This document shows positions 38,090 to 64,000 of a stretch of 64,000 nt of DNA, piece by piece. The stretch covers positions 62,001 through 126,000 of the forward strand of contig NZ_JAHCQH010000014.1 in assembly GCF_018449475.1 (NCBI RefSeq). The letters run 5' to 3'. The stretch's first letter is position 1. Each line of letters starts with the position of its first letter. Both the position numbers and the translations under genes were made by a program. The notes below the pieces were generated by a model. It searched no databases, was not told the DNA's origin, and was given only the letters and a program-made list of their open reading frames with translations. The DNA comes from Ancylobacter radicis. GTDB taxonomy: Bacteria; Pseudomonadota; Alphaproteobacteria; Rhizobiales; Xanthobacteraceae.

Positions 38090-39461
<1,372 letters not shown>

Positions 39462-49153: not shown

Positions 49154-49254
49154 CACAGCGCCCCCGTGAACACACCGGACCAGACGCCGACGGCGGCCAG
49201 GAACAGCCCGAGCGCGCCAAGGGCGGCGGATTCCTCAAGCAACGCTTGCAGCAT
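49153..49254 (-). CDS. Tiny membrane protein
   Basis: A 33-residue frame, ATG 49254 to TGA 49153, is almost entirely a hydrophobic helix (ALGALGLFLAAVGVWSGVF). It starts inside the end of the ProQ-like gene and shares a base with the next start. A real gene is likely from this packing, but such a short frame cannot be proven by sequence alone. Confidence 0.45.
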   Translation of the reverse strand: MLQALLEESAALGALGLFLAAVGVWSGVFTGAL

Positions 49255-49624
49255 GGGGAGCCTCCCTCGGGGAGTTGCGGGCGTCGATGTCGCGCAGGGT
49301 CTGCGCGGCGATCACGGCTTCCTCGGTAGTGACGACACCTTCGGGCCATCCATCGAGGTCGATGCGGTGGGCGCCGGCGACGAGGGCGCGCAGATAGGTG
49401 CGGCCCGTGGTGTAATCGTGCAGCGCATCGGCCATCTTGCGGGCCGATAGATCGGGCGCGGCGATGCGCAAGTCCTGATAGATGCCTACCTTGAGCGGGA
49501 TCTTTCGTTCGCCCTTGGGCATGAAGGTGCGAGGGAAGCGTTCCACCAGCACTTCGCGGGTGGCTTCCGCGCGCAGCCAGCGATTGCGCCGGGCCACACG
49601 GCCTTTCTTCGACCTAGCCGACAT
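49235..49624 (-). CDS. ProQ/FinO-family RNA chaperone
   Basis: The 129-residue protein has a basic N-terminus (SARSKKGRVARRNRWLRA) and the ProQ/FinO domain: LVERFPRTFMPKGERKIPLKVGI, then ALHDYTTGRTYLRAL and GAHRIDLDGWPEG, matching the usual FP-x-F ... PLK-x-GI ... Y-L-x-x-L-x-x-G-A-x-R-x-D-L-x-G pattern. Such proteins bind structured RNAs and small RNAs. The ATG at 49624 overlaps the previous gene by 11 bases. It is the only clear RNA-binding regulator in the leftward operon. Confidence 0.8.
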   Translation of the reverse strand: MSARSKKGRVARRNRWLRAEATREVLVERFPRTFMPKGERKIPLKVGIYQDLRIAAPDLSARKMADALHDYTTGRTYLRALVAGAHRIDLDGWPEGVVTTEEAVIAAQTLRDIDARNSPREAPHAASVA

Positions 49625-49847
49625 GGGACGCCTCCGAGGGAGGCGCATGGTGATCAAAGCCGCGGCGCCGGAAGGCGTTTGCCTCGTTGCGCAAGCGAGC
49701 CACGAGAGCGCGCAGCTTCTCGAGGTTGTCCTCCTGCGGCTTGATCAGCCGCGCATAGGTGTCGGCCAGGGCATCGAGTTCGCCAGCCACCTGATATTCA
49801 TGCGTATCGGCGAGCGAGGCCGGCGCGAGATTGAGGGCGGTGTTCAC
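49614..49847 (-). CDS. Small helical hypothetical protein
   Basis: The 77-residue product starts at GTG 49847 within the stop of the ribbon-helix-helix gene (GTGA overlap). It is one long helix rich in Leu, Ala, Glu and Arg (LDALADTYARLIKPQEDNLE), probably a coiled coil. No family is recognised. Confidence 0.6.
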   Translation of the reverse strand: MNTALNLAPASLADTHEYQVAGELDALADTYARLIKPQEDNLEKLRALVARLRNEANAFRRRGFDHHAPPSEASHVG

Positions 49848-53603: not shown

Positions 53604-54293
53604 TCACGATATCGGAATGGTGTTCATCACTTTCCGGACAAGGCCGATCACCTCTACCGTCCGCCCGTCGTCGGCCGTGAAGTCCCGGTCGACGACGATC
53701 GGCTTGTGCTTCGCATTCGTTGAGCGCGGGTGGAACTCGTAGTGGTCCTCGAAAAGCTCCAGCTGCTTGATTGACCGTTCGCGCATGTCCCCGCCAGCCG
53801 TGCGCTGTTCGATGATCAGCACCATGCCGTCGCGTAGTGGCACGCGCCCCCGCAGATCTTCGAAGACGACGCTGATGACCCGGTCGCCCGGCAGGATGGG
53901 GCGGGGCTTGAGGTCGTTCATGGAATCGCCGGCAATATCATTCGCCATGAGGCGGGCGTGCGGGAATTCCAAATCCCGCGTGTCATAGGTCATCTCATCC
54001 TGGACGTCGTCGAACGCGTCGACCTCGCGCCACGATCCCGCTTCGACCGCCCCCTGTACCCTCACCGGCACCAGGCTCTGAGAAGGCACCTTGATCAGGT
54101 CGCCCTGAGCACCAGGTGGATCGACCTCAAGATAGGCCGCGATGACCGGGATCTCCCGCGCCTTCAGTTGCCGCTGGCCTGCCAGCATCGCTGTGACCGC
54201 TGACGCGCTTCGCCCAAGGGCCGCCGCAAGGCCGCCCTTGGTTTTGCCCGGCTTGGCGAGGCCGGCAACGATCCAGTCGAGGTCAATGCTCAT
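53604..54293 (-). CDS. CI/LexA-type phage repressor (S24 peptidase)
   Basis: The 229-residue protein has an N-terminal HTH (GGLAAALGRSASAVTAMLAG, about 20-39) and a C-terminal S24 self-cleavage domain. The cleavage bond is probably A85-G86 (VEAGSW), with catalytic S124 (AGDSM) and K176 (RSIKQLEL). It should keep the prophage silent and be inactivated by RecA-stimulated cleavage after DNA damage. It is divergent from the Cro-like gene, and operators O3 to O4 lie between them. No strong ribosome binding site precedes the ATG, which may limit its level. Confidence 0.92.
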   Translation of the reverse strand: MSIDLDWIVAGLAKPGKTKGGLAAALGRSASAVTAMLAGQRQLKAREIPVIAAYLEVDPPGAQGDLIKVPSQSLVPVRVQGAVEAGSWREVDAFDDVQDEMTYDTRDLEFPHARLMANDIAGDSMNDLKPRPILPGDRVISVVFEDLRGRVPLRDGMVLIIEQRTAGGDMRERSIKQLELFEDHYEFHPRSTNAKHKPIVVDRDFTADDGRTVEVIGLVRKVMNTIPIS

Positions 54294-55456: not shown

Positions 55457-55488
55457 GCGTGAGAACTCTTGACTTTTGCGAGGATGAC

Positions 55489-55971
55489 ATGAGCGAGCGT
55501 GCTGTTTCCGATGTCTGGTTCCACCGGATCAAGGCGGCGACGCGTGATCTTGTGAAGGCCTGCGGCGGGGTGGAGCGCGCCGCCGACATGGCCCGCGTGA
55601 GCAGCTCGACCATTCAGCGCTGGTACAGCCCGAAGGACAATGACGTGATCCCGATCACGGCCGTGCTGTCGCTCGAGGCCGACTGCGAGATGCCGTTCGT
55701 CACCCAGGTGATGGCGGAACTGAACGGGCGCACGTTGGCGGACAGCGACCCTTCGCCCGACTGCACGAGCAGCATCGCGAGCGGCCATAACAAGCTGATG
55801 GGCAAGCTGGTTGAGCTGACCAAGGAAGTGATCGCCGCCAAGGCCGATGGCGTGGTGACTCCCACCGAAGCCGAGGTGATCGACCGCAAGACCGCCGAGA
55901 TGGTGCAGGTCGCCGGCGAACTCCGTCAGACGTGCGCCGCCAAGAAGGCGGGCGTGCGCCTGGTCCGGTAG
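55489..55971 (+). CDS. Phage HTH regulator, CII/YdaT-like
   Basis: The 160-residue protein has an HTH-like core (KACGGVERAADMARVSSST, about 25-43, then IQRWYSPKDNDVIPITAV) and a helical C-terminal tail (LVELTKEVIAAKADGVVTPTE). It resembles phage activators of the CII/YdaT kind. The ATG at 55489 has GAGGATG before it and was preferred over 55459. It may bind the palindrome 33 bases upstream. Confidence 0.72.
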   Translation: MSERAVSDVWFHRIKAATRDLVKACGGVERAADMARVSSSTIQRWYSPKDNDVIPITAVLSLEADCEMPFVTQVMAELNGRTLADSDPSPDCTSSIASGHNKLMGKLVELTKEVIAAKADGVVTPTEAEVIDRKTAEMVQVAGELRQTCAAKKAGVRLVR

Positions 55972-56248: not shown

Positions 56249-56536
56249 ATGTCCGACGCGAACGACATTCCCAACGACCAGCCGCTGTCCGATGCCGCCG
56301 CCGGCTTCGCCAAGGAGCAACTCCAATCCTTCATCGAGCGCATCGAGCGTCTTGAGGAGGAGAAGAAGACCGTCGCCGAGGACATCAAGGATGTCTTCGC
56401 CGAGGCCAAGGGCACCGGCTTCGACGTGAATGCGCTGAAGGAGATCCTGAAGCTGCGCCGGCAGGACGCCGACCAGCGCGCCGAGCATGAGGCCATCGTG
56501 GACCTCTACATGCAGGCATTGGGCATGCTGAGCTGA
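56249..56536 (+). CDS. GapR-family nucleoid protein (DUF2312)
   Basis: The 95-residue protein has the GapR pattern: [45 protein letters not shown] and a closing helix. In Caulobacter GapR binds overtwisted DNA ahead of moving polymerases and aids gyrase. A phage copy could help the replication of the element, or mark its DNA. It follows the basic protein in the rightward operon. Confidence 0.88.
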
Positions 56537-57818: not shown

Positions 57819-59213
57819 ATGATTGACGAGAGCGCATGGACCGGTCTACGCGAGCAACTGAAAGCTCTTGTCGGCGCGGACATCTATGAGAGCTGGTTCC
57901 CTCGCCTGCGGTTCCATTCCGTCCATGGCCGCATCGTGCGGCTGTCCGTGCCAACCCGGTTCCTCCGGGCATGGATCACCCAGCACTATCTGGACCGCCT
58001 GACGGAGCTTTGGAGCACGGTGGCGCCGGATGCCGAGGTGCAGATCGTCGTCCGGTCGGCGATGGTTGAGCGGCGTGCGGATGCGCCAGTGGTTCACGTT
58101 GCCTCTCCGGTCGCGCCCTCGCTTCCGCGCGCGGCTGAGCCCGTTGCCCAGACATTGCCGATCGAGGCCGCGGCGCTGGGCAGCCCGGTGGACCCGGCAT
58201 GGACATTCGCGACCTGCTGTGTGGGTGATTCCAATCGACTTGCGTTCGCGGCTGCGCAGCAGGTGGCCAATTCCTATCGGGCGCCGGTGTTCAACCCGCT
58301 GTTCATCCATGGCCGTCCTGGCCTGGGCAAGAGCCGGCTGTTGCAGGCGATCGCCAATGCGGCCGGCGGGCAGCGCGTCCTGCATCTCACCGGGGGGCGT
58401 TTCGTGCACGGCTATCTGGCGTCGTTGAAAGACGGCTCCACCAACCAATTCCGCCGGGCCTTGCGTGAGGTGGACCTGCTTCTGGTCGATGATGTGCAGG
58501 AGGTGCGCGGCAAGCTCGTATTGGCTGATTTCAGCTATCTGCTCACGGCGCTGATGGAGTTCGGCCGGCAGGTCGTTATCAGCGCGGACAGGCCCCCCGC
58601 CGACCTCGAAGGCTTTGACAGCCGGACGCTCTCGCGCCTTGGCGGCGGGCTGGTGGCCGAAATCGACGTGTTCGATGCGGCTCTCGCGCGCGACATCCTC
58701 GCGGCGAGGGTTGACGCTCTCAAGGTGCAGGATCCTGCTTTCGCGATAGAGGGCGCCATTGTCGAGCTGGTTGCCCAGCGTTGTGGTCGCAGCGGCCGGG
58801 ACATTGAAGCGGCGGTCAACCGGCTGTTTGCTCATGCGCAGCTGGGATGCCCCCTGACGCTGGAAGAAGCCGAGCGGGTGCTGCACGACAACCTGCAAAA
58901 CAACACCCCGCGACGGGTGAGGATCGATGAGGTGCAGCGCGCCGTCGCGCACCATTTCCATGTGTCGCGGGATGACATCCTCTCCCAGCGCCGGACCGCC
59001 AATGTGGTGAAGCCGCGGCAGATCGCGATGTATCTGGCGAAGACGCTCACGCTGCATTCCCTCCCGGAAATCGGCCGGCGCTTTGGTGGGCGCGACCACA
59101 CCACAGTTCTGCACGCCGTGCGCAAGATCGAGGGGCTTCAGGCGCGCGATGACGACCTCGCCGGTCAGTTGAGCGCCCTGAAAGCCACTATCACCAGCGA
59201 GGAGCGGCGATGA
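57819..59213 (+). CDS. Phage-encoded DnaA-like replication initiator
   Basis: The 464-residue protein has the full DnaA plan. Domain I (about 1-80, ADIYESWFPRLRF) is followed by a linker and an AAA+ domain with Walker A GRPGLGKS (165-172), Walker B LLVDD (221-225), a box VII Arg (R273) and a sensor II Arg (R327). Domain IV ends with the DnaA signature HSLPEIGRRFGGRDHTTVLH (about 413-432) and should read DnaA boxes. Walker A has GRPGLGKS instead of the host-type GGVGLGKT, a sign that it is a divergent copy. It probably starts replication of the element. It is embedded in an operon with four-base overlaps, so it is not the host dnaA. Confidence 0.9.
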   Translation: MIDESAWTGLREQLKALVGADIYESWFPRLRFHSVHGRIVRLSVPTRFLRAWITQHYLDRLTELWSTVAPDAEVQIVVRSAMVERRADAPVVHVASPVAPSLPRAAEPVAQTLPIEAAALGSPVDPAWTFATCCVGDSNRLAFAAAQQVANSYRAPVFNPLFIHGRPGLGKSRLLQAIANAAGGQRVLHLTGGRFVHGYLASLKDGSTNQFRRALREVDLLLVDDVQEVRGKLVLADFSYLLTALMEFGRQVVISADRPPADLEGFDSRTLSRLGGGLVAEIDVFDAALARDILAARVDALKVQDPAFAIEGAIVELVAQRCGRSGRDIEAAVNRLFAHAQLGCPLTLEEAERVLHDNLQNNTPRRVRIDEVQRAVAHHFHVSRDDILSQRRTANVVKPRQIAMYLAKTLTLHSLPEIGRRFGGRDHTTVLHAVRKIEGLQARDDDLAGQLSALKATITSEERR

Positions 59214-59809
59214 ACTGGCCGTTTTCTCCGCTCGCCATGTTCGGCTACGACCTCGCCGAGATCGACCCGCCCTGGAACTTCGACCTGTATTCGGCCAAGG
59301 GGGCCGAGAAGTCGGCACAGGCGCAGTACATCACCATGTCGCTGGCCGACATCGCGGCCCTGCCGGTGGGCAATTTGTTGGCGCCGGGCGGCGTGTGCAT
59401 CATGTGGTGCACCTGGCCGTTGGTGGCGACGGGCGCCCATGTCGAGGTGATCCGCGGCTGGGGCTTGCAGCCGGTCACCGGCGGCGGCTGGGCGAAGCGC
59501 ACGGCCAGCGGCAAGCTGCGCTGGGGCACGGGCTATTCCGCCCGCTCGGTGCACGAGCCCTACATCATTGCCCGGCTTCCCGGTTCACGCTGGAAAGGTG
59601 CGGGCTTCCCGAACCTCGTTGAGACGCTCGAGGCTGATTCTCTCGACGGGCTGGCGCGCGAGCACTCCCGCAAGCCGGATGAGTTCTACGCCCGCTGCGA
59701 GGCCGCGTGGCCGGAAGCGCGGCGCGTGTCGGTGTTCTCGCGGGAGAGCCGGCCCGGCTGGGCTGTCTGGGGCAATGAGGTTGCAAAGTTCGACGGAGTG
59801 CCGGCGTGA
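59210..59809 (+). CDS. MT-A70 family adenine methyltransferase
   Basis: The 199-residue protein has the DPPW motif (residues 19-22) after an early hydrophobic strand, then AQYITMSLADIAALPVG, VCIMWCTWPL and the closing PGWAVWGNEV. Such enzymes make N6-methyladenine in DNA. In a phage this may protect against host restriction or mark replicated DNA. ATGA overlaps join it to the dnaA-like gene and the next gene. Confidence 0.86.
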   Translation: MNWPFSPLAMFGYDLAEIDPPWNFDLYSAKGAEKSAQAQYITMSLADIAALPVGNLLAPGGVCIMWCTWPLVATGAHVEVIRGWGLQPVTGGGWAKRTASGKLRWGTGYSARSVHEPYIIARLPGSRWKGAGFPNLVETLEADSLDGLAREHSRKPDEFYARCEAAWPEARRVSVFSRESRPGWAVWGNEVAKFDGVPA

Positions 59810-61034: not shown

Positions 61035-61393
61035 CCGGTGCCACCCAGAAACTGGCGGAGCTGAAGCAGTTCTTCGGCATGGTTCGCTTCCCGCTCAATG
61101 ACGAGAAGAAGCTGCAGGCCGCGATGCAGGAGCATCTTGACGGCGGTGGGCGGGCATTCACGCGCGAGCACGTTCTAGGTCCCGGTGACGTCGTCGACTT
61201 CATGGTCGACGGGATCGCGGTCGAGGTGAAGATCAAGGGCCAGCGCCGGGCGATCTATCGCCAGTGCAAGCGGTACGCGGCGCATGAGGCCGTCGAAGGT
61301 CTCCTGCTGATTACCAATGTCGCCATGGGCTTTCCCGAGGATATGGAAGGCAAGCCGACCGCCGTGCTCAACCTCGGGAGGGCGTGGCTGTGA
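61031..61393 (+). CDS. PD-(D/E)XK nuclease-like protein
   Basis: The 120-residue protein starts at GTG 61031 in a GTGA overlap. It has a nuclease-like core: ERVLGPGDVV-type region with D in GDVVDFMVDG and the E-V-K of GIAVEVKIKG (about 60-72), then IYRQCKRYAAHEAV. The D ... E-x-K spacing fits VRR-NUC or related phage nucleases paired with SNF2 helicases, and the next gene is such a helicase. Confidence 0.72.
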   Translation: MTGATQKLAELKQFFGMVRFPLNDEKKLQAAMQEHLDGGGRAFTREHVLGPGDVVDFMVDGIAVEVKIKGQRRAIYRQCKRYAAHEAVEGLLLITNVAMGFPEDMEGKPTAVLNLGRAWL

Positions 61394-63039
61394 AGATGTA
61401 CGGCACCCTTCACCATGACGGCAGCCGCTGGGTGATGAGCGGCCTCGACCCGCATGTCGCCATCAAGCTCAAGGCGATGTTCCCGGCCGTTCCGAAATGG
61501 AGCGCGGGGCCCTTCACCTTTCCCGATTCGGTGAGCATCGCGACGGATCTGGAGTGGTTCCTGCATCGCTACCCCATGGAGATGCGGGAGGACGATCGCC
61601 GACGCTTGGCCATGGGCAGTGAGGCGTTCACGCGCCAGCGTAGTGAGGTCGAGGCGATTTTCGTTCCCGACTGGCAGCCGCCGTCCAATGTCGGTTTCCG
61701 TCCGGGCCGAGAGATGTATCGCTATCAGGCCGAAGCGGTGGAAGTGATCCGCAAGCTCGACCGACTGCTCCTCCTGGACGATGTCGGCCTCGGCAAGACG
61801 GTCACGGCGCTAGGTGCACTGACGGACGGCCTGAACCTGCCGGCCGCCATCGTGGTGCAGCCCCATCTACGTACCCAGTGGCAGAAGGAGTACGTCGAAA
61901 AGTTTACGACGCTCCGCTCCCACATCATCAAGAGCACCGCGCCGTATGAACTGCCGGTGGCGGACCTCTACATCTTCGCCTATTCCAACATCGCCGGATG
62001 GGTCGATGTCGCCGCCCAAGGGAAGTTCAAGGCTGTCGTCTATGACGAGGTCCAGGAGCTGCGCACCGGCCCGACCACGGCCAAGGGGCATGCGGCCGAG
62101 GTCTTCACGGCGAACGCCAAGGTGCGCATCGGCCTGACGGCGACGCCCGTCTACAACTACGGAACCGAGATGTTCCATGTCGTCGAGGCGATCGAGCCCG
62201 GCGCGCTGGGGACATTCGAGGACTTCGACCGCGAGTGGTGCAGCCACGGCACCGGGAAGGCCATCGTCAAGGATCCTGACGCGCTAGGAACCTACCTGCG
62301 CGAAATCCAGCTCGTGCTGCGGCGGGAGCGTGCCGGGGGCAACGTGAATACGCTGCCCATCGAGGTCGACTATGACCTTGAGGTTGAGGCCGATTCCCTC
62401 TCGCTGATGCGTATGCTGGCGGGCACGGTCATCAGCGGGTCCTTCTCCGAACGAGGGCAAGCGGCGCGCGAGCTCGACATCATGGCGCGCATGGTCACCG
62501 GGCTCTCAAAGGCCAAGGCGGTGGCGGCCTATGTGCGGCTGCTTCTGGAGGCGGGCCATCCTGTCCTTCTCGCCGGCTGGCATCGGGAGGTTTACGACAT
62601 CTGGGGCCAAGAGCTCGGGTCGTTCAACCCGGTCCTCTACACCGGAACCGAGACGCCTGCGCAGAAGGATCGCGCCAAGGCCGCGTTCATCAACGGCGAC
62701 ACCAACCTGATGATGATCTCTCTGCGCTCAGGCGCAGGGCTGGATGGCTTGCAGCGCCGGTGCAGCCATGTGGTGTTCGGCGAGCTCGACTGGTCGCCTA
62801 AGGTCCACGAACAGGTCATAGGGCGGCTCGACCGTCCCGGTCAGGAAGATCAGGTCACCGCGATCTTCCTCCATGCCAACGGCGGTTCCGATCCCCTGAT
62901 TGTCAGCATGCTCGGCCTCAAGGCCAGCCAGGCACAGGGCATCGTCGACCCGGGCAAGAGCGTCGTCCCGGTTATTTCGGACGGCAGCCGCATACGGGCG
63001 CTGGCCGAGCGGTATCTCCAAGGGAGTGCCGCAGCATGA
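61390..63039 (+). CDS. SNF2-family helicase
   Basis: The 549-residue protein has helicase motifs: Walker A DVGLGKT (131-137), a DEAH-like DEVQ (219-222), GLTATPVYNYG (motif III) and C-terminal FINGDTNLMMISLRSGAGLDG with VIGRLDRPGQEDQ (motifs V and VI). GTG 61390 gives the GTGA overlap with the nuclease-like gene; other starts (GTG 61384, ATG 61396) are possible. With the nuclease it may unwind and process replicating phage DNA. Confidence 0.9.
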   Translation: MKMYGTLHHDGSRWVMSGLDPHVAIKLKAMFPAVPKWSAGPFTFPDSVSIATDLEWFLHRYPMEMREDDRRRLAMGSEAFTRQRSEVEAIFVPDWQPPSNVGFRPGREMYRYQAEAVEVIRKLDRLLLLDDVGLGKTVTALGALTDGLNLPAAIVVQPHLRTQWQKEYVEKFTTLRSHIIKSTAPYELPVADLYIFAYSNIAGWVDVAAQGKFKAVVYDEVQELRTGPTTAKGHAAEVFTANAKVRIGLTATPVYNYGTEMFHVVEAIEPGALGTFEDFDREWCSHGTGKAIVKDPDALGTYLREIQLVLRRERAGGNVNTLPIEVDYDLEVEADSLSLMRMLAGTVISGSFSERGQAARELDIMARMVTGLSKAKAVAAYVRLLLEAGHPVLLAGWHREVYDIWGQELGSFNPVLYTGTETPAQKDRAKAAFINGDTNLMMISLRSGAGLDGLQRRCSHVVFGELDWSPKVHEQVIGRLDRPGQEDQVTAIFLHANGGSDPLIVSMLGLKASQAQGIVDPGKSVVPVISDGSRIRALAERYLQGSAAA

Positions 63040-63368: not shown

Positions 63369-64000
63369 TCATCCGCCGCCGCTACAACCGCAACTTCACA
63401 GTGCTCCCTAACACCGTGTTGGACGATGACCGCCTGTCCGCCGAGGCGATGGGCGTGTTGTGCTATCTGCGCTCCCGGCCGGCCGACTGGAACGTGGAGC
63501 TTTCACACCTCTCCGAGCGCTTCCGCATCGGTCGCGACAAGACCCAGCGGGTGGTCGCCGAGCTGGTTGATGCCGGGTGGATAAAACGAGAACGGACGCG
63601 TGATCCCGTTACCCGGGCGTTCAACGGCATCGACTATGTGGTGTACGACGAGCCTGCCGACACAAGCGATAGCGTGTCTGAGGCCGACCAGCCGAGCGAG
63701 CCACAGCCTGAAAATCCGGTTGTGGCTCATCCCGCACTTAAACACCACCCACAACCGGCTTTGCCGCGCGCGGCTTTTCAGGCTGTGCATATAGAAGAAC
63801 CAAATACGGAAAAGAGAACAAATACCCCCATAGCCCCCAAGGGGGCGGTTGGTGAAGAATCCGAGAAGCTGGGAAAGGACGACCCGCAGTACCAGAAGTT
63901 CATCCGGGAATACGCTCCCCCACCGACGGCCAGCCTGACCACGCCATTGCGCCATTGGGCAAAGCTCTCCGAGGCGCAGAGGGTGGCCGCAATCTCCTCC
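63365..64000 (+). CDS. Phage replication-type helix-turn-helix protein (partial)
   Basis: The gene starts with GTG 63365 in a GTGA overlap and runs off the window after 212 codons. Its N-terminal part (AEAMGVLCYLRSRPADWNVE, SHLSERFRIGRDKTQRVVAEL, VDAGWIKRER) is a winged helix found in phage replication proteins. A Pro/Glu-rich linker with an AT-rich stretch follows, then another helical part (SLTTPLRHWAKLSEAQRVAA). It may load a helicase or bind the phage origin. Confidence 0.75.
   Translation, partial: MIIRRRYNRNFTVLPNTVLDDDRLSAEAMGVLCYLRSRPADWNVELSHLSERFRIGRDKTQRVVAELVDAGWIKRERTRDPVTRAFNGIDYVVYDEPADTSDSVSEADQPSEPQPENPVVAHPALKHHPQPALPRAAFQAVHIEEPNTEKRTNTPIAPKGAVGEESEKLGKDDPQYQKFIREYAPPPTASLTTPLRHWAKLSEAQRVAAISS

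Follow-up and report, generated by a model that had tools for sequence, protein, structure and literature searches.

In this study, we analyzed a 64,000-nucleotide stretch of the Ancylobacter radicis genome (G000:C6:62001-126000; hereafter, the window, whose numbering is used unless a contig or locus is named) and found that a prophage of ~57 kb carries a full-length paralogue of DnaA. Nearly all bacteria start replication with DnaA, and the timing is set by the amount of this protein and by the occupancy of its boxes. The phage gene shares an early run of genes with a lambda-O-like initiator that contains origin-type repeats of its own. Based on comparisons of sequences across the genus, we tentatively propose, with a probability of about 0.4, that the phage DnaA competes for host DnaA boxes and disturbs host initiation, which is the best fit among the explanations weighed here.

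A full-length DnaA paralogue among phage genes

A 49-bp repeat matching the 3' part of tRNA-Asp bounds the element in two perfect copies (Table 1), and between them lie genes for CI- and CII-like regulators, an MT-A70 methylase, the O-like initiator, an HNH protein, terminase, portal, protease, major head protein, connectors, tape measure, fibre, and endolysin. This set of head, tail, and packaging genes between attachment repeats identifies a prophage and agrees with the initial annotation, which had placed the gene within a phage operon; the phage genes on both sides, together with the tRNA-Asp repeats, rule out that the flanks are host genes. Within the element, dnaA sits in a tightly packed plus-strand early run, where a paralogue of the nucleoid protein GapR ends 1.3 kb upstream and the stop of dnaA overlaps the start of the MT-A70 gene by 4 bases. 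A 450-aa ORF beside tRNA-Asp (38109-39461) looks tyrosine-integrase-like by eye and has no PHROG family; PF00589 has no match on contig C6, and the 10 matches of the genome all lie elsewhere. The left arm also encodes a ProQ/FinO-family protein (49235-49657).

Table 1. Features of the prophage around the phage-borne dnaA (window coordinates)
Feature	Position	Strand	Remarks
Left attachment repeat	38118..38166	+	3' part of tRNA-Asp
CI-like repressor	53604..54293	-	phrog_4; divergent from early run
CII-like regulator	55459..55971	+	phrog_101; Phage_CP76 under its Pfam cut-off; upstream in early run
GapR paralogue (nucleoid protein)	56249..56536	+	PF10073, E 1.3e-33
GP88-like phage protein	56845..57807	+	PF17338, phrog_2554; directly upstream of dnaA
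Phage-borne dnaA	57819..59213	+	ATG start, 464 aa
Domains of the phage DnaA (residues)			I ~5-66, linker ~67-123, AAA+ ~124-345, IV ~366-437
MT-A70 methyltransferase	59210..59809	+	PF05063, phrog_359
PAPS-reductase-like phage protein	59806..60723	+	phrog_424
SNF2-type helicase	61384..63039	+	PF00176, phrog_62
Lambda-O-like replication initiator	63365..64399	+	phrog_270 and others; runs past window end at 64000
Candidate phage origin	63695..63830	+	within O-like gene; inverted CCACARCC half-sites, then A-rich tract
Right attachment repeat	95064..95112		perfect 49-bp copy; C6:157064-157112

The product of the phage gene scores over the Pfam cut-offs for DnaA_N (residues 5-66), Bac_DnaA (125-280), and Bac_DnaA_C (369-437). 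With TIGR00362, the NCBIfam equivalog model of DnaA, it reaches 379.3 bits against a cut-off of 343.9, and the match spans the entire model (profile positions 1-437 of 437). Aligned with E. coli DnaA, with domain IV numbered by 1j1v_A (374-467), it has the Walker A Lys, the Walker B Asp-Asp, the Arg finger, the sensor II Arg, and the box-contact residues of domain IV, with Ser in place of the Walker A Thr. The earlier description of a full-length paralogue with Walker A, Walker B, sensor II Arg, and an intact domain IV is thereby confirmed. These features extend to relatives: R399, P423, D433, H434, and T436 are shared, without substitution, by the window DnaA and the 20 further phage-type rows compared; L009 and L010 have Lys at position 435, L106-L109 have Ile at position 437, and positions 439 and 440 vary in some rows. 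The Walker A Lys, the Walker B Asp-Asp, and the sensor II Arg are present in all 10 full-length rows (the window and nine relatives); L097 alone has His in place of the Arg finger. Phe46 of domain I is kept in the full-length phage copies. A structure prediction from a 7-row alignment gave a mean pLDDT of 66.6, with pLDDT values of 40-56 for the blocks of domain IV.

A search and alignment across the whole genome (4.2 Mb, 25 contigs) ruled out that the prophage copy is the sole dnaA. A second full-length gene, the host copy, lies on the minus strand at C14:81716-83116; its product is 53% identical to the prophage copy (83% in domain IV) and 77-82% identical to DnaA of seven Ancylobacter records among the 15 of 80 loci compared. 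The host also has another GapR gene (C16:43165-43380).

DnaA-derived genes accompany O-like initiators across the genus

We surveyed 30 genomes of the genus with two queries, domain IV of the window copy and the C-terminal part of the O-like protein. The domain IV query recovered 49 ORFs, comprising a host-type dnaA in each genome plus 19 additional ORFs spread over 14 genomes, and the O-like query recovered 14 loci in 13 genomes. In 13 of the 14 O-like loci, a DnaA-derived ORF with domain IV lies upstream of the O-like gene on the same strand; the sole exception, G401, has an integrase ORF followed 1.3 kb on by the O-like gene. The 13 ORFs differ in extent: seven are full length—G000, G412, G419, G422 (1859848), G077 (C13), G405, and G410—three lack domain I—G407, G413, and G422 (1448419)—one has a decayed AAA+ ATPase domain (G409), and two frames of 241 aa (G420) and 254 aa (G416) contain domain IV without AAA+. 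What all 13 share is domain IV, in which five box-contact residues are unchanged. Of the 19 additional ORFs, the other 6 lack an adjoining match in the O-like C-terminal search; one of them, in G408 (L122), lies in a prophage with a window-like repressor, GapR, HNH, and terminase.

Twelve of the 13 loci have a GapR paralogue near DnaA, the 13th being G407, where the sequence covered starts 0.5 kb before dnaA. It lies upstream on the DnaA strand in six loci (the window, L095, L096, L097, L098, and L100, with 44-83% identity for the five relatives) and on the opposite strand, several kilobases off, in six others (L101-L105 and L108). This pairing of phage GapR and DnaA may be of interest by itself. 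The one-contig, 4.77-Mb record of G407 starts ~0.5 kb before the phage dnaA (L099, G407:C1:1-11000) and has its host dnaA at 610 kb, so the wrong dnaA may have been used to set the start point of this record. An annotation that relies solely on DnaA can end up with a phage copy. Two further peculiarities were seen among relatives. The recognition helix of domain IV reads DHKTVHHAVHKI instead of DHTTVLHAVRKI in L009:8001-9383 and L010:2382-3758, a change by which box preference has possibly been altered, and the domain-I-less copies L013, L099, L102, L103, and L104 have in common a new N-terminal sequence, HYxxxRxR, that perhaps serves as a substitute interaction motif.

Across the order, 393 of 397 genomes matched and 13 had two or more matches, some of which are pieces of one gene; with at most 4 candidates scored per genome, second copies are undercounted. 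Eight IMG/VR loci matched, with duplicates among them (L014 repeats L013, L011 is the same as L095 of G419, and L015 is the same as L102 of G413). In the "phages" collection, 44 of 50,697 records matched, 20 covering 80% or more of the query, the best of which has 37% identity, and several matches carry names of bacteria or unrelated hosts. A scan of a collection of genome contigs with domains I-III found no relative, though near genomes may be absent from this set.

Descent, selection, and possible exchange of domain IV

The phage copies are most similar to host DnaA in domain IV. Their mean identity to genus hosts is 0.52 for domain I, 0.56 for domain III, and 0.84 for domain IV (nine full-length phage copies, L010 omitted, and 20 of the 30 genus hosts). 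The same trend holds for DnaA in general, 47 hosts of the order having 0.65, 0.75, and 0.88 among themselves, so that conservation of domain IV alone is little proof of selection, and we rejected it as such.

In a tree of 60 of the 68 rows, from which L010, being a near copy, was dropped along with seven ORFs that are short or decayed, the 20 genus hosts form one side of a branch with a support of 58, and the phage copies are long-branched and require at least two label changes. A single capture may still be their history, as joins between long branches are unsafe. Such branches, with ends of 0.76 to 1.89 in five phage copies, are what a captured host gene drifting without function could produce. 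Yet dN/dS in close phage pairs is 0.16 (L011/L012), 0.22 (L009/L010), 0.24 (L009/L011), 0.21 (L096/L097), 0.34 (L013/L103), and 0.51 (L102/L103), the frames are open, and the DnaA ORF is retained next to nearly every O-like gene, all of which makes such drift hardly credible.

We further compared 13 phage copies with host dnaA genes at four-fold sites, using the own host for eight and, for L009, L012, L100, L101, and L013, the host nearest in domain IV, a choice that biases these five toward an excess in domain IV. L011 matches its own host at 35 of 39 sites in domain IV and 53 of 99 in domain III (P = 5.7e-5, which holds after correction for 13 tests), and along 30-codon windows its DNA identity to that host climbs from 0.68 to 0.99. 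Three copies point in the same direction but are lost on correction: L012 (P = 0.003; a near copy of L011 with a chosen host), L098 (P = 0.0045), and L102 (P = 0.04), the latter two against their own hosts. The excess is 0.22 to 0.25 in L011, L012, and L098, compared to a mean of 0.07 in host pairs (standard deviation, 0.08; maximum, 0.28). The other nine copies give no such signal in this test, including the window copy, which at 21 of 39 sites in domain IV compared to 30 of 72 (P = 0.24) bears no sign of recent exchange. The near identity in DNA between domain IV of L011 and that of its own host dnaA suggests recombination, the direction of which we infer, and is expected if matching the host boxes is selected.

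A candidate origin within the O-like gene

In phage lambda, the gene of the initiator O itself contains repeats, next to an A-rich tract. The O-like gene of the window resembles this layout, with half-sites CCACAGCC, GGTTGTGG, CCACAACC, and GGCTGTG at 63702-63788 followed by an A-rich tract; it differs from lambda in that a P gene was not recognized in the window and in that DnaA and GapR paralogues occur in the same run. Slightly changed half-sites of the window type are found in L009, L011, L096, and L098, and the same part of the gene carries other repeats, often palindromic and spaced at 22-24 bp, in L010 and L100; in L097; in L101 and L103; in L102; in L099; and in L104, L105, and L108 (15 O-like genes, with repeats identified visually and with a pair search that had no random control). 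Across these relatives, the repeat type goes with the N-terminal domain of the O-like protein, as in a lambda-O-type replicon. DnaA does not follow this pattern: the dnaA genes of L009/L010 and L096/L097 are 89% and 80% identical in DNA, respectively, and in both pairs the O N termini and the origin repeats differ. Since the repeats change with the O N terminus while DnaA stays, we infer that the O-like protein, and not DnaA, is the likely reader of the origin.

The initial annotation had suggested that DnaA may start the replication of the element, possibly from an origin beyond the window. Its initiator domains are indeed intact, and a loose group of weak boxes lies at the right end of the prophage (see below), but the element owns an O-like initiator with repeats within its gene, the candidate origin lies inside the window, and a significant cluster of DnaA boxes was not found in the element. 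A role of DnaA as origin-recognizing initiator is thus not favored, and we consider it very unlikely. A helper role, in which DnaA would recruit host DnaB to an origin opened by the O-like protein and so replace a loader of the lambda P type, deserves more weight, even if it remains doubtful. It would account for the shared run of dnaA and the O-like gene, for the retention, in full-length copies, of domain I including Phe46 and of the AAA+ motifs, for a weak PHROG match to DnaC-like loaders, for the gene adjoining O, which at the window locus has no recognized loader domain, and for the resemblance of the window-type half-sites to weak DnaA boxes. The main point against it is that domain I or a complete AAA+ domain is missing in 6 of the 13 family copies; DnaA also stays while the origin repeats change.

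DnaA boxes in the host origin and in the prophage

As stated in the initial annotation, the element contains no perfect TTATCCACA: none occurs in the 97 kb examined (C6:62001-159000), and a single copy exists in the entire 4.2-Mb genome. Upstream of hemE, the host oriC holds TCATCCACA, TTATGCACA, and CCATCCACA inside 93 bp; these boxes are partly conserved in the genus, as judged loosely from an alignment in which some rows were on the opposite strand. Weaker boxes were scored with weights hand-set from a consensus after the first oriC hits; the score recovers the oriC cluster, which 0 of 60 random sequences match, a control that is not independent because the weights were set after those hits were viewed.

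With this score, the best cluster is no better than chance in 14 of 15 phage loci, the exception being L096, where the cluster corresponds to the O repeats. A surplus of boxes was found in L096 (29 compared to 20.2 expected) and in L105 (27 compared to 15.7 expected). A first scan of the prophage covered 46-93 kb of its 38.1-95.1 kb and a later one all of it. The whole prophage has 70 boxes compared to 66.4 in randomized sequences, 17 of 60 of which reach 70, and its best cluster score is equaled by 13 of 60 (150 bp) and 19 of 60 (400 bp). The repeated boxes that might have been expected within the element or outside the window thus do not appear as an excess; what does appear is a loose group at the right end (93928-94313; L006:15928-16313), where an intergenic stretch richer in AT holds five weak boxes in 400 bp. 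This number was reached by 4 of 60 randomized prophages, and by 2 of 500 when that stretch alone was randomized, for a stretch picked after the fact and lying beyond the ends of the relatives' loci. It is a borderline lead for a DnaA site on the phage.

These weak boxes would also suit a transcription factor that, like GafA or GafY of gene transfer agents, switches phage or host promoters. GafA is described in PMC9638019 as having a DnaA-like N-terminal region and binding upstream of terS, GafY as acting with RpoD (PMC11150451), and DnaA itself as able to regulate transcription (PMC8203912). The same genome has a locus of the GafA/GafY layout: a third DnaA_C ORF at C14:162363 lies between MucR-like and SufE-like genes (by eye), and the region (L008:4335-6610; G000:C14:161335-163610) reads as a MucR-like gene, the small DnaA-domain-IV-like ORF, a further ORF, and a SufE-like gene. 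This order fits the gene transfer agent regulator locus whose layout PMC9638019 describes for the GafA type of Hyphomicrobiales. However, no box scoring at least 14 was found at a common position upstream of terS (7 loci), the repressor (8 loci), or dnaA (13 loci), other than one that precedes terS in L011 and L012, which are near copies, and the contact residues, which are changed in GafA as described in PMC9638019, are mostly unchanged in the phage copies. We therefore regard such a switch as unlikely, though not as remote as a role in reading the origin.

Proposed competition for host DnaA boxes

We return to the reading that we prefer, in which the phage DnaA acts on the host by competing for boxes, as the initial annotation had also considered possible. 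Upon induction, the phage DnaA would be made together with the O-like initiator and would occupy host DnaA boxes, at oriC upstream of hemE and elsewhere. By competing or co-polymerizing with host DnaA, it would block or disturb new rounds of host initiation, which would leave host helicase and polymerase free for the O-type phage origin. The full-length form may act as an ATP-dependent oligomer and the short forms by plain box occupancy, and the GapR paralogue may serve phage forks. Several lines of evidence argue for this reading, namely, that 13 of 14 O-like loci keep a DnaA-derived ORF upstream on the same strand, that the contact residues are unchanged, that boxes in the prophage occur at about chance level, and that origin repeats differ between loci with similar dnaA genes (L009/L010 and L096/L097). 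That a DnaA ORF is kept so widely, though the relatives seem to own a separate start site, hints at a use on the host. There is also precedent for host initiation as a target, which we counted in favor: lambda P acts on DnaA according to Datta et al., as cited in PMC3640518, which itself leans to DnaB, and the prophage protein YfdR inhibits initiation when oversupplied, its deletion having no effect, as reported in PMC4776307.

The main point against a pure decoy is that the ATPase is kept in ~10 of the 13 copies; moreover, 7 of 13 keep both domain I and the ATPase, and the pairs tested are under purifying selection. Against the host-directed reading as a whole, we counted the generality of domain IV conservation, the lack of exchange in the window copy, the boxes at the right end, the surplus in L096 and L105, and Lys435. 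A more elaborate scenario, in which the phage would make a working look-alike of the host initiator whose domain IV recombines with host dnaA to match its boxes, would use an O-type origin of its own, and would have copied GapR as a second replication factor, is possible, but we hold it with some reserve.

Relation to known systems

The phage protein resembles bacterial DnaA (TIGR00362 and the host copy) in its four domains, ATPase motifs, and domain IV contacts and differs in its place in a prophage early run and its far longer tree branch. GafA and GafY likewise belong to phage-derived systems, the gene transfer agents, that use a DnaA-like DNA-binding region; as described in PMC9638019, only that region is DnaA-like there and its contacts are changed, whereas the phage domain IV studied here is a near copy of that of DnaA, is usually joined to the remaining DnaA, and in the window belongs to a complete protein with its contacts intact. 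YfdR and lambda P are reported to interfere with host initiation by binding DnaA, and the window phage encodes a DnaA instead.

Our literature searches, which reached few subscription journals, found no report of a phage-borne full-length DnaA, and the phrases "phage-encoded DnaA," "phage DnaA," and "prophage-encoded DnaA" are absent from the DnaA literature searched. The present copies perhaps represent a new way for phages to take over host replication, and the genus set of virus-borne copies, ranging from full length to domain IV, offers ready test proteins for each domain. GapR has been met in phages before: PMC12185513 calls the GapR of Erythrobacter phage R34L1 the first in a phage genome, and PMC7824862 had earlier linked T4 DsbA as a GapR homologue; DnaA has 0 occurrences in the main text of these two papers. 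Finally, the Bradyrhizobium phages ppBjS10J-1 and ppBeUSDA76-2 contain domain-IV-only ORFs that share 50 and 53% identity with this domain of the window DnaA, with a match confined to it (~20% of the query).
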